The position numbers and the translations under genes are program-made. Of a DNA stretch of 64,000 nt, positions 21,961-49,552 are shown in pieces. The DNA is from Procambarus clarkii (Eukaryota > Arthropoda > Malacostraca > Decapoda > Cambaridae), in contig NC_091188.1 in NCBI RefSeq assembly GCF_040958095.1, forward strand, positions 39,156,612 through 39,220,611, read 5' to 3'. Position 1 is the first letter of the stretch; each line of letters opens with the position of its first letter. The notes below the pieces were generated by a model that did not search any database, was not told where the DNA came from, and worked only from the letters and a program-made list of their open reading frames with translations.

Positions 21961-22034
21961 ACAATGATTTATTATTATAATTATGTGGCATTCTTCCAGC
22001 AACACGGGGCTGGTAATGAATCCCTTCAGTGTGT

Positions 22035-22180
22035 ATATAAACTACATCGAAACGCATTGCGTAATAGTGGCTTCAGGCATTGTATGTACTAGCTCTATCT
22101 ATATATCAATCCATTAATGTAACATCACTTGTATGTATGTACCTTACCTGAATAAACATATTTATTTATTTATTTATTTA
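22035..22180 (+). repeat. 3' UTR fragment of the L2/CR1-group LINE
   Basis: GCGTAATAGTGGCTTCAGGC, ATTGTATGTACTAGCTCTAT and CTTGTATGTATGTACCTTAC repeat the 3' UTR of the LINE at 17,027-18,870 nearly word for word. It ends in AATAAACA and TTTA repeats. Only about 140 bp was inserted. Confidence 0.8.
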
Positions 22181-22194
22181 CATTGGCTGCTACA

Positions 22195-22592
22195 CTGCTA
22201 CACTGGCGTAGTAAACTGTAGTAACTTACTACACTGTAGTAAGTAACTGTAGTAACTTACTACACTGTAGTAAGTAACTGTAGTAACTTACTACACTGTA
22301 GTAAGTAACTATAGTAAACTTACTACACTGTAGTAAGTAACTGTAGTAACTTACTACACTGTAGTAAGTAACTGTAGTAACTTACTACACTGTAGTAAGT
22401 AACTGTAGTAACTTACTACACTGTAGTAAGTAACTGTAGTAACTTACTACACTGTAGTAAGTAACTGTAGTAACTTACTACACTGTAGTAAGTAACTGTA
22501 GTAAACTTACTACACTGTAGTAAGTAACTGTAGTAAACTTACTACACTGTAGTAAGTAACTGTAGTAACTTACTACACTGTAGTAAATGCTT
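22195..22592 (+). repeat. 31-bp stem-loop minisatellite, about 12-13 units
   Basis: The unit TGTAGTAACTTACTACACTG-TAGTAAGTAAC is repeated head to tail with single-base variants (an extra A in a few units). Each unit junction contains TGTAGTAAGT and its reverse complement ACTTACTACA separated by about 10 bp, so single strands could form a row of hairpins. There are stops in most frames and no coding role. Confidence 0.9.
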
Positions 22593-22734
22593 CACTGGCT
22601 ACATTGGCTGCCTATACCCGGACACAATGAATTTTTATTAAGGAGCCTTAGACGTAAACTACATTATTTACATGCTCGTCTCTGCACACAAACACTACAT
22701 ATTTACCCGAGGGCCACTAACATTAGTGGTCTTG

Positions 22735-23060
22735 ATGAGGACAAGAAGCCGGCGGCTTGTAACAGGTTCCCCCATTTGTCCTGATGACTTTTTTCAAGCT
22801 GAATTTTAATGTTCATCAGTTTTTTCGCCTTTACGGTTTCGGCGGGTAGGCGGTTCCATGGGTTTATAACCCTGTGGGTGAAAAAGCATCTCCTGTTTTC
22901 AGTCCTACATTGTGGCTTGTTGAGCTTGAAATCGTTACTCCTTGTTTGTGTCACATCTGACCTTTTGAACAAGTTGTATGGATAAACATCCTTCAAAATA
23001 GCAGGATTTTGAACGTTTCAATGAGATCAATCCTATCATGTTTGGATTGCAGTGTTTTTA
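22735..23060 (-). pseudogene. CR1-C fragment, minus strand
   Basis: The minus strand encodes NLFKRSDVTQTRSNDFKLN, RRCFFTHRVINPWNRLPAE and ends at the CR1-C terminus near 22,735. It is the inverted counterpart of 21,640-21,900, so the two CR1-C fragments flank the 31-bp minisatellite in opposite orientations. The upstream boundary (about 23,060) is a 5' truncation. Confidence 0.75.
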
Positions 23061-23184
23061 ACCCTCAACCTGTCCTGGCATGCGGGTTGACTTACTTTTT
23101 AAATTATTTTTGCTGCCTGGTGTTGAACTTTCTCCAATGAAGCAATGTCTTTCTGAAGATGAGGTCTCCATTCCTAGACGTAAT

Positions 23185-23412
23185 AATCCAGGTGGGGGCG
23201 CACCAGAAAGGAAAGAAACTTTCAGGGAGGGGGTAAATTGCCAAGCCATTATGACTACATAGCACTTGGAAGGGGTCAAGATAAGGACTTGGGATGGGAT
23301 GGGAGAAAGGAATGGTGCCCAACCACTTGGACGGTCGGGGATTGAACGGCGACGTGCGTGAAGCGAGACCTTCACTCTACAGTCAGTCCAAGTGGTTGAA
23401 GGGCGCACCAGA
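23185..23412 (-). repeat. tRNA-derived SINE III, minus strand
   Basis: On the minus strand the head CAACCACTTGGACTGACTGT-AGAGTGAAGG gives an A box and CGTTCAATCCCCGACCG a B box. The body reads GTGGTTGGGCACCATTCC, CCCATCCCATCCCAAGTCC and ATAATGGCTTGGC. The tRNA-like head with an unrelated body defines a SINE distinct from families I and II. Confidence 0.7.
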
Positions 23413-23457
23413 CACTTATACAATTGAATGACTACCTTCTTTTCTCTAAAGTTAAAA

Positions 23458-23710
23458 GGACTGGACTGGACTGGACTGGACTTGATTATTCATAGAATTT
23501 GGTTAGGAAGCAGAAACAAATGGGTGGATTTTCTTTCACCCTGATGCCCTGTTCACCTAGCAGTAAATAGGTACCCTGGAGTTAGACAGCTGCTATGGGC
23601 TTCTTCCTAGGAGGGGGGGGGTGTAACAAAAAGGAGGCCTGGTCAAGGATGCCAAGCCCTGAAATCATCTCTAGATAACCCCAAGATAGCTTATTTTACT
23701 GCCGCTCCCA
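23458..23710 (+). repeat. (GGACT)5 and a partial SINE I body
   Basis: Five GGACT units at 23,459-23,483 are followed by TTTCTTTCACCCTGATGCCC, CTAGCAGTAAATAGGTACCC, GTTAGACAGCTGC and CCTGAAATCATCTCTAGATAA. This is the body of SINE I (head lost); the minus copy is at 3357-3490. Confidence 0.6.
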
Positions 23711-23834
23711 CTTGTTGTGTAACTTTCAGTGAATGATGGATTCTGACGCCAAGGTCCTTTGCTTCATCAATCTGCTGTTAATTTGTTAGTTGTCATGTGA
23801 ATGTCACTTATGACATATTGCGTCTGCTTCCTTT

Positions 23835-24825
23835 AGTACCAGGGAATCTCCTGCTTGAGCTGTATAATATGAGCTATGTTACTGGGGAACTTCCTAACTC
23901 TTGGACCAACAGTATAATCATTCCAATTCCCAAGCCAAATCAAGAGAATGCTTTCCGCCCAATTTTCCCTTACTAGCTGCATTTGCAAAACATTCGAGAG
24001 AATGGTCCTAAACCGTCTCCTCCATAGAATAAGAATCATGCTATCCCCCCAGATATATGGCTTTATGTATGGAAGGAGTGTGCATCATTGCATCACCACC
24101 TTTCTTACCCTGAACACTGAAAAGTCATACACCACCTTCCTAGATCTTAAGTCTGCCTTTGATATTGCAAATAGACATGTTATCTTGAGTGAGCTTGCAA
24201 GAATGAATATTGGTGGTCGGCTTCTTTCTTGGATCAGGTGTTACTTATCTAACAGGAAGTCATCTGTATTTTTCCAGGGACATAGGAGTGTAACAAGAGA
24301 CTTTAAACTAGGTACCCCGCAGGGTGGTGTCCTCAGTCCTACCTTATTTAATATCTTAATAAACACGCTGTTAAACTCTATACCGAGCAAACCCAACGTC
24401 CACATCATTAGCTATGCTGATGATATAATGATACACACCACTGGGTATGCTAACACGCAGAACACTCTTAACTCTGTATTACTCATGTCAGGACCTAGGT
24501 TTAATTATCTCAGCAGAGAAAACAAAGATACACAATCGGCGCCCACCCAGGCAGGGAGGAGCTGTTCGCAAGATGCAACTGTCTGATGGCTCCCAGCTTG
24601 ACTATGTAAACAGATTCAAATACCTTGACCTTGAGGTGCCACTGTATGGTGCTGTTGTATTCAGACTGTCGTCAGTATAAAGAGAGGCTCCGAGCTCTCA
24701 AGGCTGTTGCAGGTTATCACTATGGTGTACACTATGGTGTACAGCGATAACTGTAGGTAGTAACTAAGTGATTGTAACCTATCCACCGCTGCCCACTGGA
24801 TGGGGGGCGGTGTGCAGGACAAACA
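23835..24825 (+). pseudogene. LINE-D: RT of a fourth non-LTR element, interrupted
   Basis: Plus-strand frames encode NSWTNSIIIPIPKPNQ (about 23,890), SCICKTFERMVLNRLLHRI, TTFLDLKSAFDIANRHVI, LGTPQGGVLSPTLFN and the catalytic YADD at 24,413-24,424; after a frameshift near 24,500 the frame continues to QYKERLRALKAVAGYHYG (about 24,670-24,720). PQGGVLSP with YADD is unlike CR1 and suggests the I/R1/Loa side of non-LTR elements. The coding part is cut at about 24,730. A 3'-UTR-like end (CCACCGCTGCCCACTGGATG) stops at 24,825, exactly where element A1 begins, and related text resumes at 31,108. Confidence 0.7.
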
Positions 24826-24998
24826 TGGCCCACTGCCTTTTGACGAAAGGCGGTGGAGTTTCTGACGGGGGAAGGAAGAGACAATTGCGCATCGCGTCCC
24901 GCAGGCGTGGTGCGGCCAGCCTGGGTGGCATAAAAGGCGCGGGAAGTCAGGTCCCGCTCTCACTCCCTCTCCCGACCAGGTCCAAGATTCACGAAGCG
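24826..24998 (+). repeat. Terminal block A1
   Basis: 173 bp beginning TGGCCCACTGCC and ending TTCACGAAGCG, matching A2 at 30,318-30,490 base for base as read. It contains the TATA-like box. After the block the two copies diverge at once. Confidence 0.9.
24929..24937 (+). promoter_or_regulatory. TATA-like box in block A1
   Basis: CATAAAAGG lies in GC-rich DNA followed about 25-35 bp downstream by a pyrimidine-rich CTCTCACTCCCTCTCCC tract, a reasonable place for transcription start. An identical copy sits in A2 at about 30,421-30,429. The activity is inferred from position only. Confidence 0.5.
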
Positions 24999-25114
24999 GC
25001 TCCACGCTCAGCACCACGCCTCATCGACACGTGGGCCAGTACCCTTACCACTTCTACGTTTTGTTTACTGTGTACACGGGATTTCTCAAGCAATCGGACT
25101 CCCTCTCCGCTACT

Positions 25115-25209
25115 ATGGTCCCACAACTGATATTCTCCGATCCTTTGGGGCCTTCCACATCCCAGGCCGGTACCGCAGGGGCCCCCTGCCCTACCCAGCA
25201 AACCCTAAG
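25115..25209 (+). CDS. Putative first coding exon of the split-repeat element
   Basis: ATG at 25,115 opens a 31-codon frame (MVPQLIFSDPLGPSTSQAG..., Pro/Ser/Thr-rich) that ends at a near-consensus donor, AAG|GTAAGA, with GT at 25,210-25,211. Read unspliced, the frame stops immediately at TAA 25,211-25,213. Splicing in phase 2 to the acceptor at 29,258-29,259 would continue the frame as ...TL-S-GEKPDHAA. It is probably the N terminus of a gag-like protein; there is no recognised domain, and splicing is inferred from the sites. Confidence 0.45.
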
Positions 25210-25213
25210 GTAA

Positions 25214-26175
25214 GAGAGTTTCCTGTACAAGTTAGTCAGGACTACCCCCAGTGCTGGCGTGTGTTTGCGCCGTCCCTCGCGGCCCGTTCGTTCCGCTTAG
25301 CTAGTTCCCTAGGGCCTTCCGCCTGCTTGCCTCCCTGGGGTTGCTGGCGTTCCTCCGGGTCGGGACTGGTGCGCTGGTTATCTGCGGCGACTTCATGTGG
25401 CCTGGTTTCGGTGGTCCTGTGCCCTGGGGCCCGGCCCTATTGCGTGCTCGGTGGACCATTCGTCCCAGGTGTGCCCTCCCCGGTTTGCTGTGCCCCTAGG
25501 CTTGCCCTAGGGGCCATGTTTCGCCCGCGCCTGGCCGTGCGTGCGCGGCCAGGCTCCTTCTGTGGTCTGGCATCGCCCTCTGTGGCGACGCCACGCGGCG
25601 GTTTCCGGGGTTCTGAGCCCTGGGGCCCAAGCCCGGTAGGCGGCGCCCACGTGGCTTTGAGCTCGGTGAAGCACTCGCCCCAAGGATGCCCTTCGTTTCC
25701 TTCCCCGTCCCAGGCGTTTTCCCCGGAACCTGGTTTGTTGCGCCCTCTTGGCTTGGCCCTAGGGGCCAGGGTTCGTGATGCACTTGGACGTGCGTGACCG
25801 GCCAGGTTCCCTGCGAGCGTCCTGGCGTCACCCTGGTGGCGACGCCTCCTGGCCGGGTTTTTAGTTGTCTTTGTCCCTAGGGCCCGACCCTAGGGGCCCA
25901 TGCCAAGGACGGCATCACCCACGTGGCATGGAGCTCCAGGAGCGCTTGCCTTGGGCTGTGTTCGCTTCCTTCCTGTCCTTCTCCCTTTTCGCCCTCGGGC
26001 AGGAGACGCCCTTGTGGCGGCGGTGCCCCGGTGGGTAGGCCCAACACTTTCTTGTTATTGGCTGACTTGCGTCAGCCGGTGTCGTCCGGCATGTTCTTCT
26101 GATGTTTGTCTGGACGGTGATGCCCTGCTTGTTCGTCCCAGTTGTTTGTCCGTCCGGTGTTGCTCGTTTTGTCCG
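25214..26175 (+). other. GC-rich intron-like sequence
   Basis: GC-rich DNA with many CCCTAGGGCC and GGCGACGCC phrases. Two repeated passages (for example near 25,570-25,650 and 25,815-25,910) suggest an older duplication of about 250 bp. Long open frames on both strands come from the base composition. It lies between the proposed donor at 25,210 and acceptor at 29,259. Confidence 0.45.
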
Positions 26176-26179
26176 TATC

Positions 26180-27590
26180 TAGGCGTTTTGCCTGGCTGGG
26201 GTAGATCAGCCTGTTCGTTCCTAGACGTTAGTCTGGCTGGTGTAGCACAGCCTGTTTGTCCCTGTAGTTTGTCTGGCTGGTGTAACCCAGCCTGTTCGCC
26301 CTAGACGTTCGTCTGGCTGGTGTAGCCCAGCCTGTTCGTCCTAGACGTTTGTCTGGCTGGTGTAGCCCAGCCTGTTTGTCCTAGAAGTTTGTCTGGCTGG
26401 TGTAGCCCAGCCTGTTTGTCCTAGAAGTTTGTCTGGCTGGTGTTGCCCAGCGTATTCGTCCCTAGACGTTTGTCTGGCTGGTGTAGCCCAGCTTGTTCGT
26501 ACTAGACGTCTGTCTGGCTGGTGTAGCCCAGCCTGTTCGTCCCTAGACGTTTGGCCGCTTGGTGTAGCCCAGCTTGTTCGTCCCAGTTGTTGTCTGGCCG
26601 GAGTAGGCCAGCTTGTTCGCCCCAGACGTTTGTCTGGCTGGTGTAGCCCAGCCCGTTTGCCCAGACGTTTGTCTGGCTGGTGTAGCCCAGCTCGTTCGCC
26701 CAGACGTTTGTCTGGCTGGTGTAGCCCAGCTCGATTCGCCCCAGACGTTTGTCTGGCTGGTGTAGCCCAGCTCGATTCGCCCCAGACGTTTGTCTGGCTG
26801 GTGTAGCCCAGCTCGTTCGTCCCAGACGTTTGTCTGGCTGGTGTAGCCCAGCTCGTTCGCCCCAGACGTTTGTCTGGCTGGTGTAGCCCAGCTCGTTCGC
26901 CCAGACGTTTGTCTGGCTGGTGTAGCCCAGCTCGTTCGCCCAGACGTTTGTCTGGCTCGTGTAGCCCAGCTCGTTCGTCCCAGACGTTTGTCTGGCTGGT
27001 GTAGCCCAGCTCGTTCGCCCCAGACGTTTGTCTGGCGGGTGTAGCCCAGTTCGTTCGTCCCAGACGTTTGTCTGGCTGGTTTAGCCTGCTTGTTCGTCCC
27101 AGTCGTTCGTCTGGCTGTTGAAGCCAGTCTGTTCGTCCCAGTTGTTTGCCTGGCTGGTGTAACCCAGCTTGTTCTTCCCAGTCGTTTGTCTGGCTGTTGA
27201 AGCCCAGCGTGTTCGTCCCAGTTGTTTGTCCGGTCGGTGTAGCTCAGCTTGTTTGTCCCAGTCGTTTGCCTGGCTGGTGTAGCCCAGCTTGTTCGTCTCA
27301 GCTGTTTGTCTGGCTGGCGCAGCCCTGCTTGCTCGTCACAGACGTTTTGTCTGGCCGGTGGAGCCCGGCTTGTTCGTACACGGATGTTCAGTCTCATCCG
27401 GTGATGGTGTAGCCCGGTGTAGCCCGATCTGTTCGTACCCAGTCGTCTGGGATGGCCGGTGTATCCCGGCTTGTTCGTACCCAGTCGTTTGGGCAGGCCG
27501 GTGTATCCCGGTTTGTTCGTCCCCAGGTGTTTGCTGGCCCCGGTGTCCCACGTTATGTTCGCCCCAGCCGTTTGGCCTGGTCGGGGTAGA
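26180..27590 (+). repeat. 40-bp minisatellite, about 33 units
   Basis: The unit is GTTTGTCTGGCTGGTGTAGC-CCAGCYYGTTCGYCCYAGAC, close to 40 bp, with indels of 1-3 bp and base changes that increase towards the right end. It fills 1.4 kb. Because stops are absent from the unit, the minus strand stays open for 384 codons and the plus strand for over 100; both translations are periodic (WATPARQTSGR-type on minus, LSGWCSPA-type on plus) and jump frame with the unit length, so they are not called genes. Confidence 0.9.
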
Positions 27591-27654
27591 CCGGTCCGTT
27601 TGTACCTTGACGTCTCGTCCACTCGGTAGCCGCCTGTTGTTCCTGCACGTACAC

Positions 27655-29090
27655 GTTCCCTCCTGTTTCCCTGTCCTGTCCTCCAGCGCAGGCGCATGCC
27701 GTCGGGCGGTCTGTCCGCTTGGGTGGGCTATGTTATGTTATTATCTTTTATTTAAGTTTCTAAATTAATTATTGCATTGTTCAGCTTAGTTATGCCTTGT
27801 ATTTACTTACTATTCCTCTAGCAGCGTTAATGCAGTGTCCATTGCTGTGGGATACTCAACTAATTTTGTTTCACTTTTGAGAATATTATTGCTAGGCTAG
27901 CCATTCTCCCTTGATTAATACTGTTTTAATAACCATTCCATCCCTTGAACATTACAGTTTTACGCTATCCAAACCATACCATGCACATTACTGCTTAACC
28001 TACCATCCTATCCCTTGATTAATCCCGCTTTAAGCTACCAAATCTTCCCATGATTACCACTGTTTCTTTTATTTGTTCAGCTTATATGCAAGTACATTAT
28101 ATTACGGTCTTATTCTATTATTAGAATATATTATTCCCCTCCCGTTCTCACTGTTCTGTTCTACTCCTCCAGGGTAGGCGCATGCCGTAGAGCGGTCTGT
28201 CGGTTTGGGTGAGCTACGCCATGTTATCATTTATTTAAGTTCCCTAAATTATTTTATTACTTTGTTCAGCTTTCAGTTATGCCTTGTATTTACTTACTAT
28301 TCCTGTTGCAGCGTTAAGGCAGTGTCCATTACCGTGGGATATGCAAATAATTTTGTTTTCACTTTTGAGACTATTATTGGTTTACTCTAGACCATCTATT
28401 CCATGAATAAGTACTGTTTAATTATCCAATCTATCCCATGAACTTTACAATTTTAAGCTATCCAAACTATACCATGCATATATTACTGTTCAACCTAACC
28501 ATCCTATACCTTGTATAGTCCTGCTTTAATCTACCCAAATTATCCATGATTATCACTGTTTACTCTTTTATTTGTTCAGCTTAAATACAAGTATATTATA
28601 CCTTTTATTTGTTCAGCTTAAATACAAGTATATTATAATACGGTCTTAAGCTATTTACTTGTTCAGTTTCAGTTTGTCTTGTATTTACTCCGCTATTTAT
28701 TCTCTGTTTCTAGCACTGCTTACGCCTCATGCCTTTCTTACTGTTTTGGCCTCGCTATGTTATTTATATTATTTAAGTTTCTAAGATTAATTTGTTACAT
28801 AGTCCAGCTCCAGTTATGCCCGGTATTTACTTAATAACACTGTTGCAGTGTTAAAGCAGTGTACATTTCTGTGGGATACTCAAATAATTTTGTTTTTACT
28901 TTTGAGATTATTATTGTTTGAATTCTTCTATACTATCCCACGATTAATACTGTCTTAATATAAACAAACTATACAATGAGTAATACGGTCTTATTATAAC
29001 CAAACTATACCATGAATATTACTGTTCAATCTATACATGAATATTACTCTCTTAATCTATTTTAACTGCTCAGAGTTTATTACATTGGTT
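27655..29090 (+). repeat. About 0.5-kb sequence in three tandem units
   Basis: The phrase CCATTGCTGTGGGATACTCA followed by ATTTTGTTT-ACTTTTGAGA-TATTATTG appears at about 27,838, 28,327 and 28,862, and each unit also carries GCCTTGTATTTACTTACTAT, a series of CCATGA/AATACTG phrases and TTTATTTGTTCAGCTTA. Two units share AGG-GGCGCATGCCGT-GGCGGTCTGT at 27,685 and 28,172. Periods of about 490 and 535 bp show unequal indels. AT-rich, non-coding, within the proposed intron. Confidence 0.8.
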
Positions 29091-29259
29091 TTATTACGAT
29101 AGCATTGGCTATGTCCGGTATTCTCAATCACTATGGACACTTAACTTTACCTTGCTTTTGTCTACTTGTGTATGTGACGGTTGCCGGTGCGGCAGCTGGG
29201 CCTCCCTGCCTGTTTTCCCCCGTTAGACCTGTCGATGCTTACTTTTTCATTTTCCGCAG

Positions 29260-29658
29260 TGGCGAGAAGCCGGATCACGCAGCAACTGCAACACGGAAGA
29301 GGGCTCGGGCGACGTCGCGTGAGGACAACAGCGCAGTGGGGTGAGGACGCAGCCGGCCTTCGCTTCGCCTCCCCCCCTCGGGGGCCTCCTCGGGCGGCTC
29401 TGATGTGCACGGCGACCACACTTCCCAGAGGCCACTGCCGGCAAAGCGGCGGGTGGCACAGCGTCGCAGCCTCCACCTTTTTCGGCCGACGATTGGACGA
29501 CGCTGCAGGCGCCCATCGCGCAGGCTCGGGGGCCCTCTCATGTCACAAGCCTTCAGGGCATGGGAACCACCGAGGCAGACCCTGCCGCGGCTGCTACAGC
29601 CGCCCCTGCCCCCCACCTTCACCGACCGTCGCCCACGGGCCAAGGCCAGGGGGCATAA
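29260..29658 (+). pseudogene. Second gag-like exon of the split-repeat element, damaged
   Basis: After a strong acceptor (TTTTTCATTTTCCGCAG, AG at 29,258-29,259) a frame reads SGEKPDHAATATRKRARATS, meets TGA at 29,342-29,344, and continues in the same frame through PPSGASSGGSDVHGDHTSQR and PAKRR. Around 29,455 the natural reading shifts by one base to QPPPFSADDWTTLQAPIAQ and ends at TAA 29,656-29,658. Low-complexity, basic then Pro/Ala-rich sequence with a bipartite basic cluster fits a gag-like or disordered nuclear protein; no zinc knuckle is visible. One stop and one shift make it a relic unless another intron exists. Confidence 0.45.
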
Positions 29659-29802
29659 GTCGAGGCGATGTGCGAGCTCCTCCAGCTTGTCCTCCTTCCT
29701 TCCTAGTTTTGTAGCGTAGTTGCTCTGCCTCCCTGAGGTTTCCCTCGCGGCCAGCGGGCACTCGCCCTTCGGGGGGGGGTCCGGCCTGCTGGCCTGCGGG
29801 GT

Positions 29803-30317
29803 GGGGGTGCAGCGCCCGTCCCCAAGTGTTCCGCTGTCCGCAGCTACTACTTTGACTTTACAGACATTCTACTAGTAAGCCCTACCTTGTCAGGTAATTC
29901 CTTCCTTGGCGGCTCGGCCTCTGGCCTGGGGTTATTTTCTTCTCCAAATACATATCAGGCTTCCCCAGTCACTATGTTTTCTGCCGCCTGATTATTCTCC
30001 AGCTAGGGTTTCCCTTATGTTATGTTGTTCACTTTGGTGTCCTGTTATACTTAGTATTAGATTTGTTACATTCGCCTCACTGCTAATTCTAGACATTAGG
30101 ACATTAGGTTTCTGCAGAGTTTGTTACTAGGCTATAAGATTACGTTTTACTACGGGTGTACAATTTAAGATATTTCGTGTACTTTGCGTTAGCCACGGCT
30201 ATGTTATACATTTGTTAAGTCCTATTTAAAAGCCTGTTTTACTTCTGCAGAATTATTTATCATGTCAATAAAATTACGCCCCCAAGGCTTGGTGTCTTCC
30301 TTCCCCTGATCAGAAAA
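29803..30317 (+). repeat. Block B1
   Basis: 515 bp starting GGGGGTGCAGCGCCCG and ending TTCCCCTGATCAGAAAA, matched by B2 at 30,593-31,107 at a constant offset of 790 bp; the 75-codon chance ORF inside both copies translates identically, which supports near-perfect identity. It holds a further acceptor-like CCGCTGTCCGCAG at 29,829-29,841. Confidence 0.9.
30267..30272 (+). terminator. Poly(A) signal in B1
   Basis: AATAAA stands 45 bp before the end of block B1, with a T- and C-rich stretch (TGTCTTCCTTCCCC) downstream, as in a polymerase II 3' end. Confidence 0.5.
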
Positions 30318-30490
30318 TGGCCCACTGCCTTTTGACGAAAGGCGGTGGAGTTTCTGACGGGGGAAGGAAGAGACAATTGCGCATCGCGTCCCGCAGGCGT
30401 GGTGCGGCCAGCCTGGGTGGCATAAAAGGCGCGGGAAGTCAGGTCCCGCTCTCACTCCCTCTCCCGACCAGGTCCAAGATTCACGAAGCG
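30318..30490 (+). repeat. Block A2
   Basis: Copy of A1 that begins directly after the last base of B1, including the TATA-like CATAAAAGG. The next 102 bp (30,491-30,592) have no counterpart after A1. Confidence 0.9.
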
Positions 30491-30592
30491 CCCACCCTCC
30501 TCCCCCTTTCTGCTGGCTGCCAGTTCTCACGGTTCTGACTACGTCAGTCGTTGTTCCTCACGTTTTCCTCCCGTTTCACTGGGGATGGGTGG

Positions 30593-31107
30593 GGGGGTGC
30601 AGCGCCCGTCCCCAAGTGTTCCGCTGTCCGCAGCTACTACTTTGACTTTACAGACATTCTACTAGTAAGCCCTACCTTGTCAGGTAATTCCTTCCTTGGC
30701 GGCTCGGCCTCTGGCCTGGGGTTATTTTCTTCTCCAAATACATATCAGGCTTCCCCAGTCACTATGTTTTCTGCCGCCTGATTATTCTCCAGCTAGGGTT
30801 TCCCTTATGTTATGTTGTTCACTTTGGTGTCCTGTTATACTTAGTATTAGATTTGTTACATTCGCCTCACTGCTAATTCTAGACATTAGGACATTAGGTT
30901 TCTGCAGAGTTTGTTACTAGGCTATAAGATTACGTTTTACTACGGGTGTACAATTTAAGATATTTCGTGTACTTTGCGTTAGCCACGGCTATGTTATACA
31001 TTTGTTAAGTCCTATTTAAAAGCCTGTTTTACTTCTGCAGAATTATTTATCATGTCAATAAAATTACGCCCCCAAGGCTTGGTGTCTTCCTTCCCCTGAT
31101 CAGAAAA
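30593..31107 (+). repeat. Block B2
   Basis: Second copy of B; its AATAAA is at 31,057-31,062. It ends at CAGAAAA before TATAAATTTTGACACTAG, which is the resumed flank. Confidence 0.9.
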
Positions 31108-31350
31108 TATAAATTTTGACACTAGCTCTCCACATATGTCAGTTGCTTAATTTAGAACCTGTACTTGAGGTCGATCTCGAACCCATTGTTGATGTGACGA
31201 CTTATATTGAATTTTGTAACTAGCTCATCAAGATTGTAACTTGCTTAGCTAAATGAATTGTGGGGTTCAGTCCCTGAGCCCATTATGTGCCTCTGTAACC
31301 CTTTCCACTACCGCCCACAAGATGGGTATGGGGTGCATAATAAATGAACT
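31108..31350 (+). repeat. LINE-D-like 3' UTR, right of the split-repeat element
   Basis: The segment ends with CCACTACCGCCCACAAGATG, GGTATGGGGTGCATAATAAA and a short tail. The same kind of text (CCACCGCTGCCCACTGGATG, GGCGGTGTGCAGGACAAACA) ends the left flank at 24,825. The simplest reading is that the split-repeat element sits in the 3' UTR of LINE-D. Confidence 0.5.
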
Positions 31351-31699
31351 AAACTAACTTATAGTAACAATGAGGAGCATAGTACATATAGTGACAAACA
31401 TTCTACACAACTAGGTGAGTACAACAAAATTACCAATTACAAATCTGTACTCTTCAATTTGTCCAGAACGGAAAAGGTTTTGTATTTATGTTGCAAAGAC
31501 AAACTAACCTTCCTAGGCCTAATGCACATTATCTGAGGCCTAATACAGTACATGTGTGTGCTATACTAGCCCTATGAATATGTGATTTTGTTTTTTAGCT
31601 AAATTTTTTCACACTCTATATATAAAGTGAATACTGTAGTACCAATTTCTACTAATTGCTTACTACGTCAATGTTTGTACTATGGTGTACATAGTTACA

Positions 31700-31892
31700 C
31701 AAACTACTATCTAAACAGGAGGATGGGTTGACTTTTAACAAACCCATCGTGCGTTGATTTTACAAGACTATAAATTGCCATCCACACTTCCGAAGAAATA
31801 AACATTCCATTCACCTGGGCTGAATGGGGTCTCGAACTCTGGACCCCACGCATGTAAGGCCGTAGCTCTATCGACTGGGTTAAGAGCAGTCT
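31700..31892 (-). repeat. tRNA-derived SINE IV, minus strand
   Basis: Minus-strand text CAGTCGATAGAGCTACGG (A box) and CCAGAGTTCGAGACCCC (B box) forms a tRNA-like head. It is followed by CAGGTGAATGGAATGTTTAT, TTATAGTCTTGTAAAATCAA and a copy of AAAAGTCAAC on each side. It differs from SINE I to III. Confidence 0.6.
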
Positions 31893-31984
31893 TAAAAGTC
31901 AACTTTTCAGTATCCTGCAGCCAAACTGGATTTTTCGACTTTCCCTGACTACTACTCTAGCCCAAAGGAATTACTGACCCATGT

Positions 31985-32200
31985 CAACATCATATTCAGT
32001 CCAGGTGAATGGAGTTTACAAGACTGTTTTCTGTGAGATGGAGAATGATTTTCTCCCTTAGGATTCCCTCCATGAGCTTGCAGATGTGTAATGTCAACCT
32101 GATCAGACTGTAGTTTTCTGCTGAGCTCTTTTTGCCCTTTTGAAAAATGGGGTGACATTTGCATATTTCTAATCTAGGGGAACTATCCCTAGGTCCCAAG
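31985..32200 (-). pseudogene. LINE RT fragment
   Basis: The minus strand encodes EICKCHPIFQKGKKSSAENY, LTLHICKLMEGILREKI and HLTENSLVNS. This matches the RT region from the 'WK-ANVxPxFKKG' motif to the 'S.HG' motif of CR1/Rex-type LINEs. About 200 bp survive, and the palm is absent. Confidence 0.65.
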
Positions 32201-32329
32201 TATGCTGAGAGAGAACTTGATCAACATCAAAACCCCAAGACTTCTCTACACAACTGGCCGACTTCTCACAGTGTTCAAAAGAGAACGTAACAAACATCTT
32301 CAAAGGATATCTGATCAACCACGCTGACT

Positions 32330-32450
32330 CATATGTCAGGCTGTGAGGAGCAGCATCAAACAGATTGATTGACCAGACCACCAACCAGCAGGCGTGGTCA
32401 GAGGCCGGGCTGCTGGGGCATGGATCCTCTGATTCATCGGCAGATATACA
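32330..32450 (+). repeat. CAGGCTG-family repeat, diverged
   Basis: CAGGCTGTGAGGAGCAGCAT, GACCAGACCACCAACCAGCA and GGTCAGAGGCCGGGCTGCTG resemble the 5' part of the repeats at 8090 and 10,814. Low similarity; no coding role. Confidence 0.4.
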
Positions 32451-32539
32451 ACAGGTACGGGATTGTGCATCAAGGATACAAGTCAAGTAGCGAGAAGAAT
32501 ATATGTGAAAACAATAAGGTGGTGGTACAGTGAGATCTC

Positions 32540-33110
32540 ATCAGCAAGGTCCTGGAAAATGGTTCCAGAGCTGAGGACCAGACGGGAAGTCAGTCTGAGT
32601 GTCTTGACAAGAAGATGGCTTAACTGGTGCAATGACTTTGAGAAGGGAACAATTTATAATGAGCACAGGACTGAAGAATGCAGCGTGGGGTACCACTACA
32701 ATTAATGCAGCAAACCTGTAAGCTCTTGCAAACATTATTAACTTGACTGCAATTCCCACAAATGGTGCAAAAGAACATTTCACTTCGACATGTCGGAGCA
32801 CCATGGCCAAACTTCCAAGTGTGGCACTCGTGCTTGGAGGGGGCATTCTCATAGACAGAGGATTTGACACAAGAACAACTACAATTGGGAAGGTGCGATT
32901 GTCAAAAATATTCTTTGCAATATGAAGAGGCCTAATATGCATACCATGATGGGGAGTGTTAACATATCTGCCTGCATATTAGAGTTCCCGTGGAACGCTC
33001 ATCTTGATGTTGCCATGGCAATCTCAAATACCCCTGCCTCCAACACTGAGATGGGACAGCAGAATAATACTGTGGTCTCAGTGCTATCATTCATCCTTAC
33101 ATTTTTGTGA
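32540..33110 (-). pseudogene. Second gag (ORF1) relic with zinc-knuckle remains
   Basis: On the minus strand one frame near 32,750-32,860 reads CHTWKFGHGAPTC and then FFCTICGNCSQ, corresponding to the first two CCHC knuckles of the better preserved gag at 33,360-34,496 (CWKFGHGVLKC, CPMCGDDSHS). Frames are broken throughout. It probably comes from a related I/Nimb-type element. Confidence 0.5.
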
Positions 33111-33309
33111 CTAGCTAGAACCTCACCAACATGCAGGAGTGCAGCTAGCCTGTCGCATTGTTCTTCAGAGTAGACCTTAACAATATGTGTGCTAGATTGC
33201 TGGGAACAAAAGGCAACGTTTGAGCCAATGCACTGGAACAGGCAGAGACACAGCAGGAGATCATAAACTTAACACTTCAGAATTTTCTACAAATTACCTA
33301 TTTAAAATT

Positions 33310-33370
33310 ATCCGTTAGATTAAGGACCTGCCTGAAGCACTATGTGTGTGTTAGTGGCTTTACAAGAAGG
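33310..33370 (+). repeat. LINE 3'-tail fragment
   Basis: TTAAGGACCTGCCTGAAGCA and GTTAGTGGCTTTACAAGAAGGTAA are the tail motif seen at 9655 and 11,660. It is joined directly to the C-terminal end of the minus-strand gag ORF, whose stop codon lies in this tail. Confidence 0.55.
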
Positions 33371-34496
33371 TAAAAACGCGAGCGTAGGATATGCCCGCAA
33401 AAGGGGTGAGACGATGAGCTTGGCGTCTCGCTTCAGGAAAAGACAGACGATCACGGTGCTTCAAGTTGAGGACGGCTTCTTCGAGTTTGCAGTGTACACA
33501 CGAGCGTGAGAAAGTAGGGTGGGCCTCACCGCAATTGAGGCAGTGAGCCTGGGGAGAAGTGCACTCGGACTTAGAATGACTATCATCCCCACACATGGGG
33601 CACAGATACATAGTACTGGTGCATTTGAGGACACCGTGCCCGAACTTCCAACACTTATTGCAAAGTCTAGGGGAGAGAATGTACTCCTGAACGGAGCATC
33701 TGGCACCAGCAAGAATAGAGGGCGGAAGGGTCCTACTATTAAAGGTGATTTTTACAACTCGAAGGAGCTGTCGGCAACGACCACGAGGGGGTCGAGTAAA
33801 CGTGTCCACCTGGAGGACAGAATGGCCTTGGGCTTCAAGGATATGTTTACTATCCTCATGGCAATCTTTGAGGTCCTGAACACCAGTTGCAACATGGTGT
33901 GGGAGGAGAACAATGCCAACACTGGCATTTAACCGAGCGTTTTTGGAGACCCGAACAGGGGTCTCTCCAATGCAGGACAAAGCAGCTAAGCGAGTAGCTG
34001 CATCCTGAGGAGCAGCAGCGATGACACGCGTACCGTAACTGGTGGAGTTAAAAGTAACAGAGGCATCTACTGAATCAACAAGGTGTTTATGGAGGGAGAA
34101 ATCGTCAGGAGGAGTAGAATCCAGATGGTGGAGATCAAAGTATTTAGCCCACGTAGCAGGACCAAACAAGGCGTTGTAAGTAGTATTACGGGAAGGGATC
34201 GTGCGAGTGCGGCCGTGGCGGGAACGGCGTTGAGAACCCCCAGAGAGAGAGGGGATACGAGGCATAGTAGTCACAATGAGAGACGAAGCCGTGCCAGGGG
34301 ATGAAGTGGTCACCACTGGGGGCTGGGGACTCGACCCTACCGCAGAGGAGGGAGGGGAGCTGAGGGGAGTATCCAGGTCGTCGGGGCCCAATGCAGCAGG
34401 GGCTACAGGGCCTGGTCTTCCAACACAGTCCGACTCGGGGGCTTGGTCACCCACCCCACGAGCCTGAGAAAGTACAAGGGAAACATTATCAGCCAT
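33360..34496 (-). CDS. ORF1/gag of an I/Nimb-like LINE, intact 378 codons
   Basis: ATG at 34,494-34,496 begins MADNVSLVLSQ; the frame is uninterrupted to a stop at 33,360. A Ser/Pro-rich N-terminal third with an Arg-rich patch (RRSRHGRTR, about residue 92) is followed by a folded middle region and three cysteine-histidine knuckles at about residues 285-335: CNKCWKFGHGVLKC, CPMCGDDSHSKSEC, and CLNCGEAHPTFSRSC, then CVHC. This matches nucleic-acid-binding ORF1 proteins of the I superfamily, which coat the element RNA. The last residues (about ARVFTFL) come from the abutting LINE tail, so the native C terminus is missing. No ORF2 follows; the matching RT-RNase H relic lies 17 kb away. Confidence 0.85.
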   Translation of the reverse strand: MADNVSLVLSQARGVGDQAPESDCVGRPGPVAPAALGPDDLDTPLSSPPSSAVGSSPQPPVVTTSSPGTASSLIVTTMPRIPSLSGGSQRRSRHGRTRTIPSRNTTYNALFGPATWAKYFDLHHLDSTPPDDFSLHKHLVDSVDASVTFNSTSYGTRVIAAAPQDAATRLAALSCIGETPVRVSKNARLNASVGIVLLPHHVATGVQDLKDCHEDSKHILEAQGHSVLQVDTFTRPPRGRCRQLLRVVKITFNSRTLPPSILAGARCSVQEYILSPRLCNKCWKFGHGVLKCTSTMYLCPMCGDDSHSKSECTSPQAHCLNCGEAHPTFSRSCVHCKLEEAVLNLKHRDRLSFPEARRQAHRLTPFAGISYARVFTFL

Positions 34497-42270: not shown

Positions 42271-42280
42271 AAAAAAAAAA

Positions 42281-42720
42281 CCAGCGTTGAATGTAATGAA
42301 ACGCCATTTTCTGGGTGAGCCCCGGAGGCTCCCTGGAGCTTATCGGGCTAATGTATGTTATATTAGACCGGGACAAGGAGTTCAGACCTACCAGGGGCCA
42401 GCGCCAGAACCTGGCCCCTTCAGAGAGGTTTCAGGGAGCAATGGCCCTGGAAAACCCCTTGTGGTTGGGGTTTTCCTTATCTGCCATCGACCGGGGTTAC
42501 GCACCCAGAAAGGTAGGCATAACAAAACAAACCCCACATGGTAAAAACTAAAACAAAAACTGAACATAGAGGTAGAAACTCCCTACAATCACAAGGAAAC
42601 AAGCAAACATCACACTTTACTGCCGCGCCAATCGTCCGCGCAGCCCTCCCCGCCCCGGGAGGGGGAGGGGGGAGCCCCGGACCTACCGCGCCGGCTGCCA
42701 ACCTCCAGTTCGGAAGCTAA
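42281..42720 (-). repeat. DIRS copy 2, 3' inverted terminal repeat
   Basis: It starts CCAGCGTTGAATGTAATGAA and ACGCCATTTTCTGGGTGAGC, then GAGCTTATCGGGCTAATGTA and ends in the GC palindrome CCGCGCAGCCCTCCCCGCCC-CGGGAGGGGG with CCGGCTGCC. From GAGCTTATCGGG inward it is inverted against 49,553-49,945. Confidence 0.85.
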
Positions 42721-42764
42721 GCTTCAACCAACGCGAAAAAACCGCCGACCGGTGGGAGGGAGGA

Positions 42765-42870
42765 TTGCCAGGGAGCCTCCGGGGCTCACCCAGAAAATGG
42801 CGTTTCATTACATTCAACGCTGGTTTTCTGTGGGGAGCCCCTACGGCTCCCTGGAGCTTCATACCCAAAG
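42765..42870 (-). repeat. DIRS copy 2, internal complementary region
   Basis: AGCCTCCGGGGCTCACCCAG, AAAATGGCGTTTCATTACAT and TCAACGCTGGTTTT are the inverted form of the element's left edge. TTCTGTGGGGAGCCC and GCTCCCTGGAGCT directly after are the inverted form of its right edge (49,945-49,965). This is what a copy of the joined ends of a circular intermediate would look like. Confidence 0.85.
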
Positions 42871-42879
42871 AGAAGGAAA

Positions 42880-43600
42880 AGAAAGGGCTAACCCGGGAGG
42901 CGGCCGCCACAAACTCTGCAACACAAAGCCAAGACAACCGGTTGCAAACCTGGGACCCAAGGCAACAAGAACGCCCAAGAGCAGACGCGCATAAGGATGG
43001 GCGGCCAAGAACCTGTGCGACCCACAAATCCCTGCGCCCGAAATGAGCCCGAGACGTCACCAACACAGCAGCAAAAGCTGCAAACGTCTGAACAGCATGG
43101 GCGCAAAGACAAACCGCAGGCTGGAAGAATGAAAACACTGCGGACGACCTGGGAGACCCGAGCCCTGAAAACAGGGAACGAAGGAACCGGATCAACCACA
43201 GCGCATCCCCACACACGGTACACCGGCAACAGCAAAAAGCACAACCGGACAACACAGGACGCACCCCCCCGGCCAAACCAATCAAGTACCAATACCCCAA
43301 GAACCCCTCCGGAAAGCAGCCGTCTCGACCGTCGCCAGGACAGAGAAAGGCTGCACACCTATAAAGCTACCACCAGTACCAAAGAGCAGGAAACTGAACC
43401 GAAGGGGCTACCACAAACTGAGGGGAAGATTAAGAAGGCACCCTGAACAAGGACCAGGATGGCTCAGGCGACGCATGAGCAGGCCGGAGGGGAAACAAAA
43501 CACGAGAAAACGTATGAAACGTCATACTGTCGCCAAGGCGAAGCTCGCAGGTGGTACACCGTCAACAAAGCCACCAGAACACTATAGAGATGGTGATACC
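42880..43600 (-). pseudogene. DIRS copy 2 tyrosine recombinase, degenerate
   Basis: Minus-strand frames contain a C-terminal stretch reading CAHAVQTFAAFAAVL (about 43,100), which stands where the catalytic HxxR segment of the family is expected (here H-A-V-Q), then DLWVAQVLG and a tail ending next to the ICR. The N-terminal part is better seen in copy 3. Frameshifts prevent a full reading and the catalytic Arg/Tyr residues are not all visible. Confidence 0.5.
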
Positions 43601-43689
43601 CGCGTCAAAATACCAGACGCGAAGAGCCAAGGAGAAGGCCGAACCAGTCACGGACAGGACCGATTCGGCCTGCTGAAAGAGGCGGAGCC

Positions 43690-45390
43690 TCAGGAAAAAC
43701 GCCCCGGGTACGGACACCTATCAAGCAGCGTCTTAAAAGAAGGCCGGGCCGGCCACCATGGAACCATAAGGACTGTTCTCGTGGGAATGGGCTGCAACCG
43801 AGCCAGAATCCGAAGCAACAGCTGGACCGGGAGAAGAGGAACAGGTAACCCCCACCTCGACCAGTCCTGCCGAAAGCATCCACCGTGAAGTCCTCGCAGG
43901 TGGGAAAGGGCGCCACAAAATGGGCGACGCCTAGACCACGCTGACCCGAAGACGTCCATGGCCAGGAGTCCATACGCCCGACAGAGCCAACAAAACGAAT
44001 CGGCGACGACTGGCCAACCCACGAAGAGGAATGAACCGAGACAGCTGTCGGCCAGGACGCAGGACACACCCCGGACACGAACCTCATGGTTAGCCAAACC
44101 CCTGTGGTTCCAGCAAGAACCACCAGAGAACAGTCCAAACAGAGCTGAATGGTAGAGTACCTAGTGACCCAAACCCTCCGAAGCGCAAACCAGACAGCCA
44201 TGAACACCCGAACCGTGCTGTGAGCCCGACGGACAGACAGACTCCATCAACCTCGGCCGACCTGGTGAGCACTGGTCACAAAGCCCCAGCCGAGAGACGA
44301 CCCGTCTGTGAACACATCGAGCGAAGGCTCGAGGAGGTGCCAAGGCACGGAACCCCGAAAACCCCAAAGAGGAAGCTGGTGACGCAGCACCAACAGAAGA
44401 TCCCCGGAGGAACCCAATGAATGCAAGAGGCGGAAGGGGAGTCTCCACAGGAACCAACAGACGCCGTAGCCAAACCCGACTCCGCGGGCAGACAAGCACG
44501 CCGAAGTGCAGACTCCCGCACAACCGCTCAAGCAACCGCTGAGCAACCCGGGACCCCCCCTCCTGAACAGCCGAAGGTGGGACCACAGCTGCAGTAACAC
44601 TTCTGGAGGGAAGACAATGAGGGGCCCAAGAGCCTGAAACAAGGCCCAGGTCCGAACCCGGGACGGAAACAGATGGAAAAACCTCCAGATCACCAGGAAA
44701 CCAAACCCGGCGATCTGGAAAGAACCATCCCCTGGCGAGCAGACAAGCGGACTGACTGGGAGCCCACACCAGCCAGTCGTCGAGGTAGGCCAGACACCGA
44801 ATCTCAGACTTGGACAGGGCACTAAGATCCGGTAAAGATGCAAAAAGTATACGAAGTGCTCATTACAAAATAGGGAAGGCAATAAAAACAGCAAACCCGA
44901 AGCCCCACCAACAACCGTGCTAGTCCCAGAAAAAACTGGAGAGGAACGTGCCAAGAAGTGACCTGGATGTCCAGGGCCACCATCCATGCACCCGGCCCCA
45001 ACAGAATCCGAACAGGAGACAACAGTCCTCCGAGGAGGGCATAGAATCCAGGGCGCAGACTGAAGAAGTCCAGAAGAACTGCAGACGGGAAAAGCTCATG
45101 ACTGCAAAGAGCAGACGGGAACCCCAGAAGGATGGGGCGGATCGACTACGCCCCACGCACCCACGAAGAGGAAATGACGAAGCGCAGGGGAAGAAGCCCA
45201 CCCCGCCAGCTCTGAACCCCCCCCAAGGGGGAGAAGCCGTCCTCCGATGCCAGCAGAGGCCGGAAGACAACCCAAAGCGCCCACCAACAGCGGGACCATG
45301 CGAGAGGCAACAGAGCAAGCTGCTCCCCCAGCGCCCAGTCAACAGAGAAGGGAACAGAACCCCTTCCGAAAGAAAAAGTACACTAACTAA
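43690..45390 (-). pseudogene. DIRS copy 2 RT and RNase H, degenerate
   Basis: The minus strand shows the DIRS RT palm (MVALDIQVTSWHVPLQ, about 44,970), the catalytic CLAYLDDWLVWAPSQ with YLDD at 44,776-44,787, a thumb region (VCPRSRVWLRRLLVPVETPL, about 44,480) and an RNase H start SLDVFTDGSSLGWGFVTS at about 44,270-44,325. Further on MDVFGSAWSRRRPF and QDWSRWG, then LMVPWWPARP (about 43,760), match the conserved region after RNase H in DIRS. Several frameshifts break it. The upstream part is cut by CR1-A at about 45,390. Confidence 0.75.
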
Positions 45391-45580
45391 GTCATGAGGA
45401 GAGACTACTGGAATTAAACCACACTTCGCTGGAAGACGAAGAGTGAGGGGAGACCTGATCACCACATTCAAGATACCCAAGGGAATCGACAGGGTTGATA
45501 AGGACAGGCTATGTAACACAAGGGGCACACGCACTAGGGGACACAGGTGGAAACTGAGTACCCAAAAGAGCCACAGAGAT

Positions 45581-45611
<31 letters not shown>

Positions 45612-45735
45612 AGTGTCAGAATGATAACGGGAAAGCACTAGGAAGTAATGTGGCGACTCCACACACACATAACAAGGCTGACCCCCATACAAAGTCACAT
45701 GTAGACATGATAGAACCCAATAGGCACAGGAACCT
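45390..45735 (+). pseudogene. CR1-A relic, left part
   Basis: The plus strand carries GAGGAGAGACTACTGGAATT, the SLEDEE-type region, IPKGIDRVDKDRLCNT and GTRTRGHRWKLSTQ, then a T run of about 30 at 45,586-45,611 in place of the normal LEKNFF-type text, and then GSNVATP... to VDMIEPNRHRNL. It is cut at 45,735 by CR1-B. AAAAGTAC occurs just before its start (about 45,379) and just after its end (about 47,480), a plausible target duplication. Confidence 0.8.
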
Positions 45736-47359: not shown

Positions 47360-47400
47360 CTCTCATCCTGTAACTACACTTAGGTAATTACACTTAGGTA
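47360..47400 (+). repeat. CR1-B 3' UTR with 14-bp repeat tail
   Basis: The short 3' UTR TCTCATCCTGTAACTACACT is followed by ACTTAGGTAATTAC twice, in tandem. The same end appears at 50,185-50,222 and, inverted, at 56,918-56,955. Short tandem repeats at the 3' end instead of poly(A) are characteristic of CR1-group elements. Confidence 0.85.
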
Positions 47401-47478
47401 ATTACCTGTTGATAGACGGTTGAGAGGCGGGCATAAAGAGCCAGAGCTCCAAGCACAACTAGGTGAGGACATATACTG
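47401..47478 (+). repeat. CR1-A relic, right part (3' UTR)
   Basis: CTGTTGATAGACGGTTGAGA-GGCGGGCATAAAGAGCC and AAGCACAACTAGGTGAG continue the CR1-A relic that was interrupted at 45,735. Together they show that CR1-B landed between the stop region and the 3' UTR of CR1-A. Confidence 0.85.
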
Positions 47479-47479
47479 T

Positions 47480-48295
47480 AAAAGTACAAGTCGCCGACTA
47501 GTGGGCAGAGAGCACCACGCCGGCCAGGCAAAGAAGGCACAAAACTGCATCAAAAGGCCCACCTCGACAGCAAAACCGCAAAGTCCCAGCACAACCACAA
47601 CATGTGCCAAGACCCAAAAAGATCAGTCTGCAAGCCAGGAAGACCCCGGAACCCCAGAAGGCAGAACCGGGTCACACGAGGAAACAAAGTCCCCTGAACC
47701 CACAAAAGGGGGCCCAAGAGGAAGAAACCTCCAAAACGAAACCAAGGAACCCAAAGGAACCCAGAATCGAACCAGGGGGAGCCCAAACCACCACATTTGC
47801 CGGCGGAGAACACCACTGAAAGGCAAAGCACAGCCCCCAGCAGAATCCCCTGGGAAAACGGTCCCAACAGACCGAAAACCGAGGGACAAGGTGTGGGAGC
47901 AAGCATACCAGCCAGGGGCACTGAGCCTAAACCCAAAGGCTCAGACCCAAAACAGAAAAATAGGAAAAACCCGTTGTAAAATCAACACCCAAACGTTCCC
48001 AGAGGAACAGGCAACGGCAAGAAAACACCAGAAAAACAAAGAAACGACAACAGGAGAACAAAAACCCTGAAAAAAATTTGAAAACTCACCCGAGACGCTC
48101 GCTCACACACCCAGACGCATGTAAACAAACCGCAACGCCGCCCTGGTGGCCACTCCGTGAAACCGGCAGACGAAAATGGCCGCCAGCAGGGGCTGTGACT
48201 GACGCTAAATACACAAAAACACGCCAGCAAATGTGGGAAGCTAGCAGACTGGATGGGCGAAAAACGTCGCCCAACACCAGAAAAACCCCGGCAGG
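47480..48295 (-). other. DIRS copy 2: gag-RT spacer, decayed
   Basis: Minus-strand translation is hydrophobic low complexity with no motif in any frame. By position it should hold the end of gag and the RT N terminus. Either it is too decayed to read or it contains foreign sequence. Confidence 0.4.
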
Positions 48296-48299
48296 GGCA

Positions 48300-48970: not shown

Positions 48971-48974
48971 GGTG

Positions 48975-49552
48975 TTGCTAACCGGTTAAGAAACCCAAAC
49001 ATAACAAGAGGGTAGATTATAGCACTGAAAACCCCTGAGACGTGTACAATCATGGGGGCCTAGCAGAGGGCCGCCAAACACTACCAGTGGAACTATAACC
49101 ACCTTAGGCAGACCCCCACCAGGCATGAAAAATTAAAAACAAAAGAAAAACCCCGCAAAAGTACACCGTCTCCAGAGGCAACAGAAACCGGCCGCTGCTT
49201 AGGTGGCAGGCTGTGCAACACCTTGACGCCCTAACCAGCACAATACCAATCCCTACCCAGGGCCAAACAAGGGTCCCAAGCCCCAGCTGGCCCCAAGGGC
49301 AAGGCAAATGCTGAGCAGGAAGAACCTCTACGGGAATGGTTCCCGAACGCCCCAGGGAAGATAACCCTGTTACGCAAGGGCAGTACTCACAGGGCGCTTA
49401 GGGAAGTCAGCCACTAAGCACATGCAGCCCCGGCACTGATGAAGTACTCCTGGCCACCGCGCAACACAACACACGGCAGTGAACGCCACACAAGGCAAAC
49501 ACCGCCTAGGAAACTGAGGCCAGAGAAGCGTCAATCCTGGTTGACATTAGCG
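48975..49552 (-). other. DIRS copy 2 5' leader
   Basis: Sequence between the 5' ITR and gag on the minus strand. It is colinear with copy 4 at 61,730-62,380 (for example GCCAGCTGGGGCTTGGG and TTGTGCTGGTTAGGGCGTCA) and has no long ORF. It is a conserved non-coding leader of about 0.6 kb; a TAG|-type acceptor-like site precedes gag in both copies. Confidence 0.6.

Follow-up and report, generated by a model that had tools for sequence, protein, structure and literature searches.

The window considered here is a stretch of 64,000 nucleotides of the decapod Procambarus clarkii (NC_091188.1, positions 39,156,612 to 39,220,611 of the forward strand). It holds an element in which two blocks of sequence, A and B, each occur twice in the order A1-internal-B1-A2-B2, with a short spacer, s, between A2 and B2. 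What kind of mobile element carries its repeats in such an order, and by which route does it spread? The original prediction pointed to split direct repeats of the PAT/Ngaro type. This is supported by the same order in all 12 fetched pairs of A blocks, by 39 genomic junctions between B and A, and by seamless empty insertion sites. The element is very probably a non-autonomous split-direct-repeat retroelement of the DIRS order, in the style of PAT, Ngaro and VIPER, recently active and mobilised in trans by a reverse transcriptase (RT) and a tyrosine recombinase (YR) encoded elsewhere. It is placed only at the level of the split direct repeats within the DIRS order; the choice between PAT, Ngaro or a new family would need the pol gene, PAT and Ngaro being told apart by the presence or absence of a methyltransferase (MT) domain and by the RT/YR tree.

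Arrangement of the repeats

The element proper starts with ATGGCCC at 24825 and ends with CAGAAA at 31106, which gives 6282 bp in all. Block A, defined by the extents of the exact repeat, is 174 bp long and present in two identical copies (24825-24998 and 30317-30490), and block B, defined in the same way, is 516 bp long and also present in two identical copies (29803-30318 and 30593-31108). The dinucleotide AT (30317-30318) is common to B1 and A2, and because of this 2-bp overlap the B1/A2 junction has no spacer. The missing spacer and the identity of both pairs had been noted before and agree with these extents. The blocks first described, of 173 and 515 bp, are confirmed nearly to the base, whereas the outer coordinates given with them, 24826 and 31107, are each one base off. 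When the remainder of the window is searched sensitively with the element, only three short weak matches appear (E 0.009 to 0.46). The parts of the element are as follows.

24825..24998, plus strand: A1, left terminal repeat, 174 bp (exact extents; 23 left ends begin ATGGCCC)
24930-24936, plus strand: TATA-like box ATAAAAG in A1 (sequence)
near 24960, plus strand: initiator-like TCACTC in A1 (sequence)
24999..25209, plus strand: leader and putative exon 1, with an ATG at 25115 and a donor-like AAG/GTAAGAG at its end (sequence; same donor in 11/11 aligned copies)
25210..29259, plus strand: putative retained intron, 4050 bp, ending in a pyrimidine-rich stretch and a CAG acceptor (sequence; acceptor in 11/11 aligned copies)
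26104..27377, plus strand: 40-bp minisatellite of about 32 units within the putative intron (Tandem Repeats Finder; length varies among copies)
29260..29714, plus strand: 5′ remnant of a Gag-like gene with stops inside and its 3′ end deleted (86% DNA match to the older copy L033)
29715..29802, plus strand: short 3′ non-coding segment ahead of B1, common to gag-bearing copies (BLAST of L043 and L044 against the element)
29803..30318, plus strand: B1, 516 bp including the shared AT, with the poly(A) signal AATAAA at 30267-30272 (exact extents; sequence)
30317..30490, plus strand: A2, internal copy of A, overlapping B1 by 2 bp (AT) (exact extents; 36 exact junctions genome-wide)
30491..30592, plus strand: spacer s between A2 and B2, 102 bp (98-100% identical beside A2 in 12/12 fetched pairs)
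30593..31108, plus strand: B2, right terminal repeat, with AATAAA at 31057-31062 (exact extents; CAGAAA end at 31106, the next two bases varying among insertions)

Judged by its sequence motifs, A1 probably holds the promoter and the start of the RNA, and A2 joined to B1 is presumed to be the template of a circle junction. The spacer s is a fixed part of the element. The original prediction counted the 102-bp gap between A2 and B2 against the model. This objection falls away, as the gap is present in 12/12 fetched pairs and has an equivalent of about 30 bp in VIPER/SIRE (PMC6681497).

Dispersal in the genome

The genome searched comprises 4.03 Gb, and the window lies within contig C39. A 30-bp pattern spanning the B/A junction occurs at 36 places exactly and at 39 with up to 3 mismatches, against 0 for the reversed-pattern control at both settings, which excludes a chance origin of the junction. 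A search with block A, a probe that favours copies with a perfect A block, yields 382 first-look candidates; the 40 scored among them give 41 matches, 40 of which are 100% identical. For reading, 12 A-A pairs and 13 single A places were fetched, and the full reading from A1 to B2 covers 13 copies (the window copy and L009-L020). The order A1-internal-B1-A2-s-B2 is found in 12/12 fetched A-A pairs, and the repeat pairs are identical in the window copy and identical or nearly so in these. L010 carries one extra A-s-B unit, and L016 and L017 keep the order, but with large internal deletions. In an alignment of the eleven copies without large deletions the mean divergence is 0.64% (range 0.13-0.99%). 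The element is a member of a dispersed, young and recently active multi-copy family.

A genome-wide check of the ends and of the junction had been proposed together with the original prediction. Many copies stop at the same bases, and the B/A junction, far from being confined to this locus, lies at 39 places. The other finding that was to speak against the model, two full A-spacer-B units serving as long terminal repeats (LTRs), is seen in 0/12 fetched pairs.

Insertion sites and target preference

The table of ends takes A matches from base 1 and B matches reaching at least base 512, which excludes the B end of L025 and the old A block of L033, the minus copy in L029, and small fragments in L015 and L021. 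The 23 left ends start with ATGGCCC in differing flanks, except for the window copy and L009, which lie within a shared host repeat. The 17 right ends read CAGAAA, followed by a variable dinucleotide (AC 3, AT 5, TT 2, AA 3, CT 3, AG 1). Among the 15 loci with both ends read, none has a target duplication of at least 3 bp.

The window copy and L009 are inserted 2 bp apart in two copies of one host repeat, which allows the comparison with empty sites that had been suggested earlier. A DNA search with the joined flanks gave 0 candidates, probably since its words are too common. A pattern search found the empty host-repeat site at 1204 genome places (control 0). Letters are shown for 48 of the 100 places listed, 42 with ACAAACATATAAATTTT and 6 with ACAAACATAAATTTT. 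When its two flanks are joined, the window copy yields one of these versions and L009 the other, with no base lost or gained. Since the empty sites equal the joined flanks and no duplication of 3 bp or longer is present at the 15 loci, the insertion is seamless, as seen directly for two insertions. The target logo of the 23 left ends, two of which are not independent sites because both lie in the same host repeat, has A at position -4 in 18/23, A at -2 in 20/23 and G at -1 in 0/23.

The host repeat around the window copy is very abundant, its intact site accounting for all 1204 of these places. Just upstream of the element, at 23918-24586, lies an RT fragment (Pfam RVT_1, E 2.8e-29).

Concerted renewal of the repeats

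Within copies, B1 and B2 differ by 5 substitutions summed over 13 copies, compared with a mean of 24.7 for shuffled partners, and 0/20000 shuffles are as low; L015 and L016 have a further 2 indel columns each between B1 and B2. Variants found only in the window copy, in L013 or in L010 recur in each B block of the copy concerned. A1 equals A2 in 13/13 copies, though A served as the search probe. As B1 and B2 carry the variants of their own copy, both repeats are renewed at each transposition. Such joint renewal is the behaviour of retroelement ends, to which gene conversion after insertion could add.

Interior of the element and the gag-bearing tier

The element overlaps 15 stop-to-stop frames of 120 aa or longer, and 10 of these were compared with Pfam. 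Eight have no match at E<=1, and two have sub-threshold matches to unrelated families (E 0.036 and 0.061). The earlier statement that no RT or recombinase lies inside holds for these 10 of 15 long frames in the window copy. Rfam gives 0 families and the tRNA scan 0 hits for the sequence, and the bacterial promoter scan is uninformative. No viral contig (0) has the junction pattern, and the gag query finds 0 relatives among 17 pattern stretches.

The donor AAG/GTAAGAG (25209/25210) is identical, and the acceptor CAG (29259) present, in 11/11 aligned copies. From these signals we infer that splicing may occur between the two sites. The 4050-bp putative intron also contains AT-rich repeats, and its minisatellite has the highest gap fraction of the internal region in the 11-copy alignment.

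The remnant ahead of B1 leads to an older tier of the family. In the older copy L033, A is 93% and the internal part X2 86% identical, and the sequence runs on where young copies jump to the 3′ segment. There a long open Gag-like frame extends from 8382 to a long interspersed nuclear element (LINE) insertion near L033:9510, with a C/H-rich motif, CFAYHSRGPGC..., that is continued in L043 as CPRCRRRHPAYNPC (CX2CX3HX5C); the H is one residue off the CX2CX4HX4C of VIPER. Pfam gives no gag match for this frame, which we take to resemble the Gag of the DIRS order. A DNA search with the gag part yields 247 candidates, and among the 40 scored all but L033 itself are 93-99% identical over the gag portion. 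In L043 and L044, the gag end is followed by about 225 bp and then by B. Among the 40 scored matches, the 3′ segment lies 220-232 bp downstream of gag in 32, at 318 and 330 bp in 2, and further away in 4, at 667 bp, at 1432 bp, at 4437 bp (C14) and at 5652 bp (C5:18162419), with none listed for 2. As 32/40 matches leave no room for pol before the 3′ segment, there is a gag-bearing tier in which no pol follows gag.

The window copy is a member of a younger, gag-deleted tier derived from this gag-bearing tier. Upstream of B1, 31 of the 36 exact junctions are of the gag-deleted type; 3 are of the gag type, namely C13, C24 and C41, judged by their coordinates and, for C24, by a partial read as well; of the last two, one is the second junction within L010 and the other, in L030, is truncated. 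Of the three one-mismatch junctions, C76 is of the gag type by coordinates, and the remaining two, C55 and C66, are unread. Eleven junctions were probed by the 200 bp just upstream of B1, and all are gag-deleted (11/11). Pol directly upstream of B1 is found at none of the exact junctions where this was read, 11 of them by 200 bp only. The suggestion of a non-autonomous form is supported, as no copy read contains RT or YR and the gag-bearing copies show what was deleted.

Two candidates for a pol-bearing copy were rejected. C48 is long (10.1 kb from A1 to the junction), but the first 1.76 kb of its extra sequence, the portion read, encodes a frame that we take to be a LINE-type endonuclease, and for this reason the extra sequence is regarded as a LINE insertion. 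In the old copy L033, gag is interrupted by a LINE RT at about L033:9510. In L043:1-270, a second open frame overlaps the gag end and stops at ...EQYYRGRQVRE shortly before B1; this frame may be what is left of a downstream gene that was lost. In L033:4919-5355, a young and an old member of the family face each other head to head at a distance of 96 bp.

Modular forms

The units of the element also occur in other combinations. A-s-B stands alone in L025, L026 and L031, in L025 without the last part of B, and L010 has the structure A-X-B-A-s-B-A-s-B. A gag-type copy, L044, whose B borders directly on the flank (its left end was not read), is another such form. Genome-wide, and with up to 3 mismatches allowed, A-s borders number 86; a B/A junction lies just upstream of 35 of them and is absent from the other 51. 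For exact borders the split is 28 with and 9 without, so decay of the junction may be all that sets the older borders apart. Joining or separation of A-X-B and A-s-B units at B/A, or exchange within A or B, would be expected to yield the combinations observed. At C112:1664505-1667528, an array runs through an A-s border, two B/A junctions spaced by 1662 bp and another A-s border, which amounts to more than 2 units in tandem.

Proposed mechanism

Judged by the positions of the TATA-like box (24930) and of the poly(A) signal in B, the RNA would start inside A1 and end after the AATAAA of B2, and the outermost part of A and the final bases of B would be missing from it. The B1/A2 junction would then be the only intact side-by-side copy of both lost ends, and copying across it would restore them. 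The cDNA would subsequently close into a circle with a B/A junction, and a tyrosine recombinase would exchange the CAGAAA/ATGGCC junction with a short A-rich target, leaving no duplication. Such a scheme carries the circular-junction model of DIRS1 (PMC3266345) over to direct repeats. RT and recombinase would come in trans. Because the putative 4-kb intron is retained, the transposing RNA would have to be unspliced, and splicing would serve gag expression only.

A variant of this scheme concerns the source of the enzymes. In a two-tier, split system, a gag-only family and its gag-deleted derivative would have no pol member sharing their ends, and RT and recombinase would come from a DIRS-order element that is unrelated or has different ends. 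This arrangement is rather unlikely; if true, it would represent the YR equivalent of a bipartite element.

Several observations weigh against a trans-mobilised split-direct-repeat retroelement. RT, RNase H and YR are seen in no copy read; the autonomous partner was not located, with no genome-wide YR (PF00589) result behind this negative. The RNA intermediate is deduced, and no intron-spliced copy was seen. The Gag label of the L033 frame draws on a resemblance and on the C/H-rich motif. In L044, B runs straight into the flank with no A2, leaving a single B (its left end was not read), and only 4/40 scored gag matches have a B/A junction in the next 2 kb downstream when up to 3 mismatches are allowed. 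Most gag-bearing copies are therefore either without the A2-s-B2 end or have lost the junction. Moreover, the sample of ends is biased towards perfect A blocks.

Alternative explanations

The repeats could also be read as a derivative of an LTR retrotransposon, with A-s-B (792 bp) as the LTR and a 5′ LTR that lost s and B. Such a derivative would account for the A-s-B units standing alone (L025, L026, L031), which resemble solo LTRs, and for the TATA-like box in A with the poly(A) signal in B. It is nevertheless highly improbable, since s never follows A1 in the window copy or in the 12/12 fetched pairs (the leader follows in 11/12, L017 being deleted there), the empty sites are seamless, and no target duplication of 4-6 bp is present, 0/15 loci reaching even 3 bp; identical LTRs at both ends together with such a duplication are not found. 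Equally hard to credit is a segmental or tandem duplication, in which A-X-B lies beside a deleted second copy, A-s-B, and the whole was amplified by DNA mechanisms. The order does equal two head-to-tail units with different middles, and L010 and C112 contain extra units, but the same end bases recur in unrelated flanks, two insertions lie 2 bp apart in copies of one repeat, and the empty site holds no trace of the element. Duplication is refuted as the sole explanation, and unequal exchange may still make extra units.

A transposon of the Crypton type, moving as DNA only, shares more features with the element. Excised circles would be integrated by a tyrosine recombinase, B/A would be the circle junction, and no RNA step would be required; seamless insertion at a short target, the B/A junctions and the putative intron kept in the interior all fit. 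What makes it very unlikely is that B1 and B2 are renewed together, that the Gag-like gene fits a retroelement, and that the promoter-like A and the poly(A)-bearing B appear to be placed so that an RNA would lose exactly what B1/A2 keeps. A Penelope-like element with a partial tandem pseudo-LTR (pLTR), which is made there by a second head-to-tail copy (PMC8969392), has a negligible probability. Here the second unit has its own middle, s, and is no truncation of the first; there is no target duplication, and no RT domain in the frames tested within the element. Inverted arms like those of DIRS1 were also looked for, and 0 inverted pairs of at least 40 bp (exact seed 14) were found in 22000-34000, where shorter or more diverged arms would escape.

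Other repeats in the window

Further repeats lie outside the element. On the minus strand, at 42272-49965 and 50481-56006, and also at 61648-63038, there are elements with inverted repeats of about 425-440 bp and 90-91.5% identity; the pairs are 42307-42730/49538-49965 and 50516-50940/55581-56006. The first of them has an RT-like YLDDW motif on the minus strand at 44787, and the frames scanned give no Pfam match. They are presumably degenerate DIRS1-like elements. Inverted copies of a LINE RT-like region, 1205 bp long and 98.5% identical, occupy 46201-47405 and 56918-58122. A tandem repeat at 22198-22586, with units of about 31 bp and stretches up to 96.6% alike, is unrelated to the element.

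Comparison with known systems

Knowledge of how split-direct-repeat elements replicate comes mainly from models. Large families without pol that are moved by a partner occur among LTR retrotransposons, as in pairs of the Dasheng/RIRE2 type, but these have LTRs, an integrase and target duplications. Among the known elements, PAT, Ngaro and VIPER have been described as carrying split direct repeats (PMC4157794, PMC9210276, PMC8969392).

The closest precedent is VIPER of Trypanosoma cruzi with the non-autonomous SIRE (PMC6681497). In VIPER, too, A1 stands at the 5′ end, with B1-A2-B2 at the 3′ end and an A of 173 bp, and SIRE consists of A2, an exclusive middle of about 30 bp and B2, which is the same idea as A2-s-B2 here (PMC6681497). 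VIPER encodes Gag, YR and RT/RNase H, whereas neither YR nor RT was found in the copies read here; the spacer is 102 bp rather than about 30 bp, the host is an animal, and the interior includes a putative 4-kb intron that contains a minisatellite. A zinc-finger motif is described in the Gag-like protein of Pat1 and of some VIPER elements (CX2CX4HX4C in VIPER).

Ngaro elements have the order A1-ORFs-B1A2B2, the ORFs being open reading frames, and a length of about 6 kb (Cafeteria burkhardae, PMC8547959; Xenopus, PMC9210276). One Xenopus element has 100% identical repeat pairs (PMC9210276), and solo AB repeats in Cafeteria are reminiscent of solo LTRs (PMC8547959). Ngaros, however, encode RT/RNase H and YR, and the deletions described remove ORF1 (PMC8547959), while in the present family it is pol that is missing, with gag retained or truncated. 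PAT-like elements share the split direct repeats and, in Pat1, a Gag with a zinc finger, and a crustacean report exists for Daphnia; their forms include PAT of Panagrellus, an echinoderm form and a Daphnia pulex form with an inverted YR (PMC4157794). They carry RT, MT and YR (PMC4157794), which were not found in the copies read here. DIRS1-like elements are comparable in their circular junction of a few bases, which recombines with an identical short target without target duplication (PMC3266345; for decapods PMC2685390), but in place of split direct repeats they have inverted terminal repeats together with internal complementary regions (PMC3266345, PMC2685390).

In the open-licence papers searched, no report of a large split-direct-repeat family without pol in an animal was found. 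The family described here is a young animal one with near-identical copies, empty sites, a target preference, modular forms and joint renewal of its repeats, so that the circle-junction model can be tested by comparison of copies. It suggests that the cis-acting parts (A, B, the B/A junction and the spacer s) are enough for spread without a linked pol. The recurrence of a spacer between A2 and B2 in the distant VIPER and SIRE suggests, in turn, that it is a functional part of such elements and no accident.

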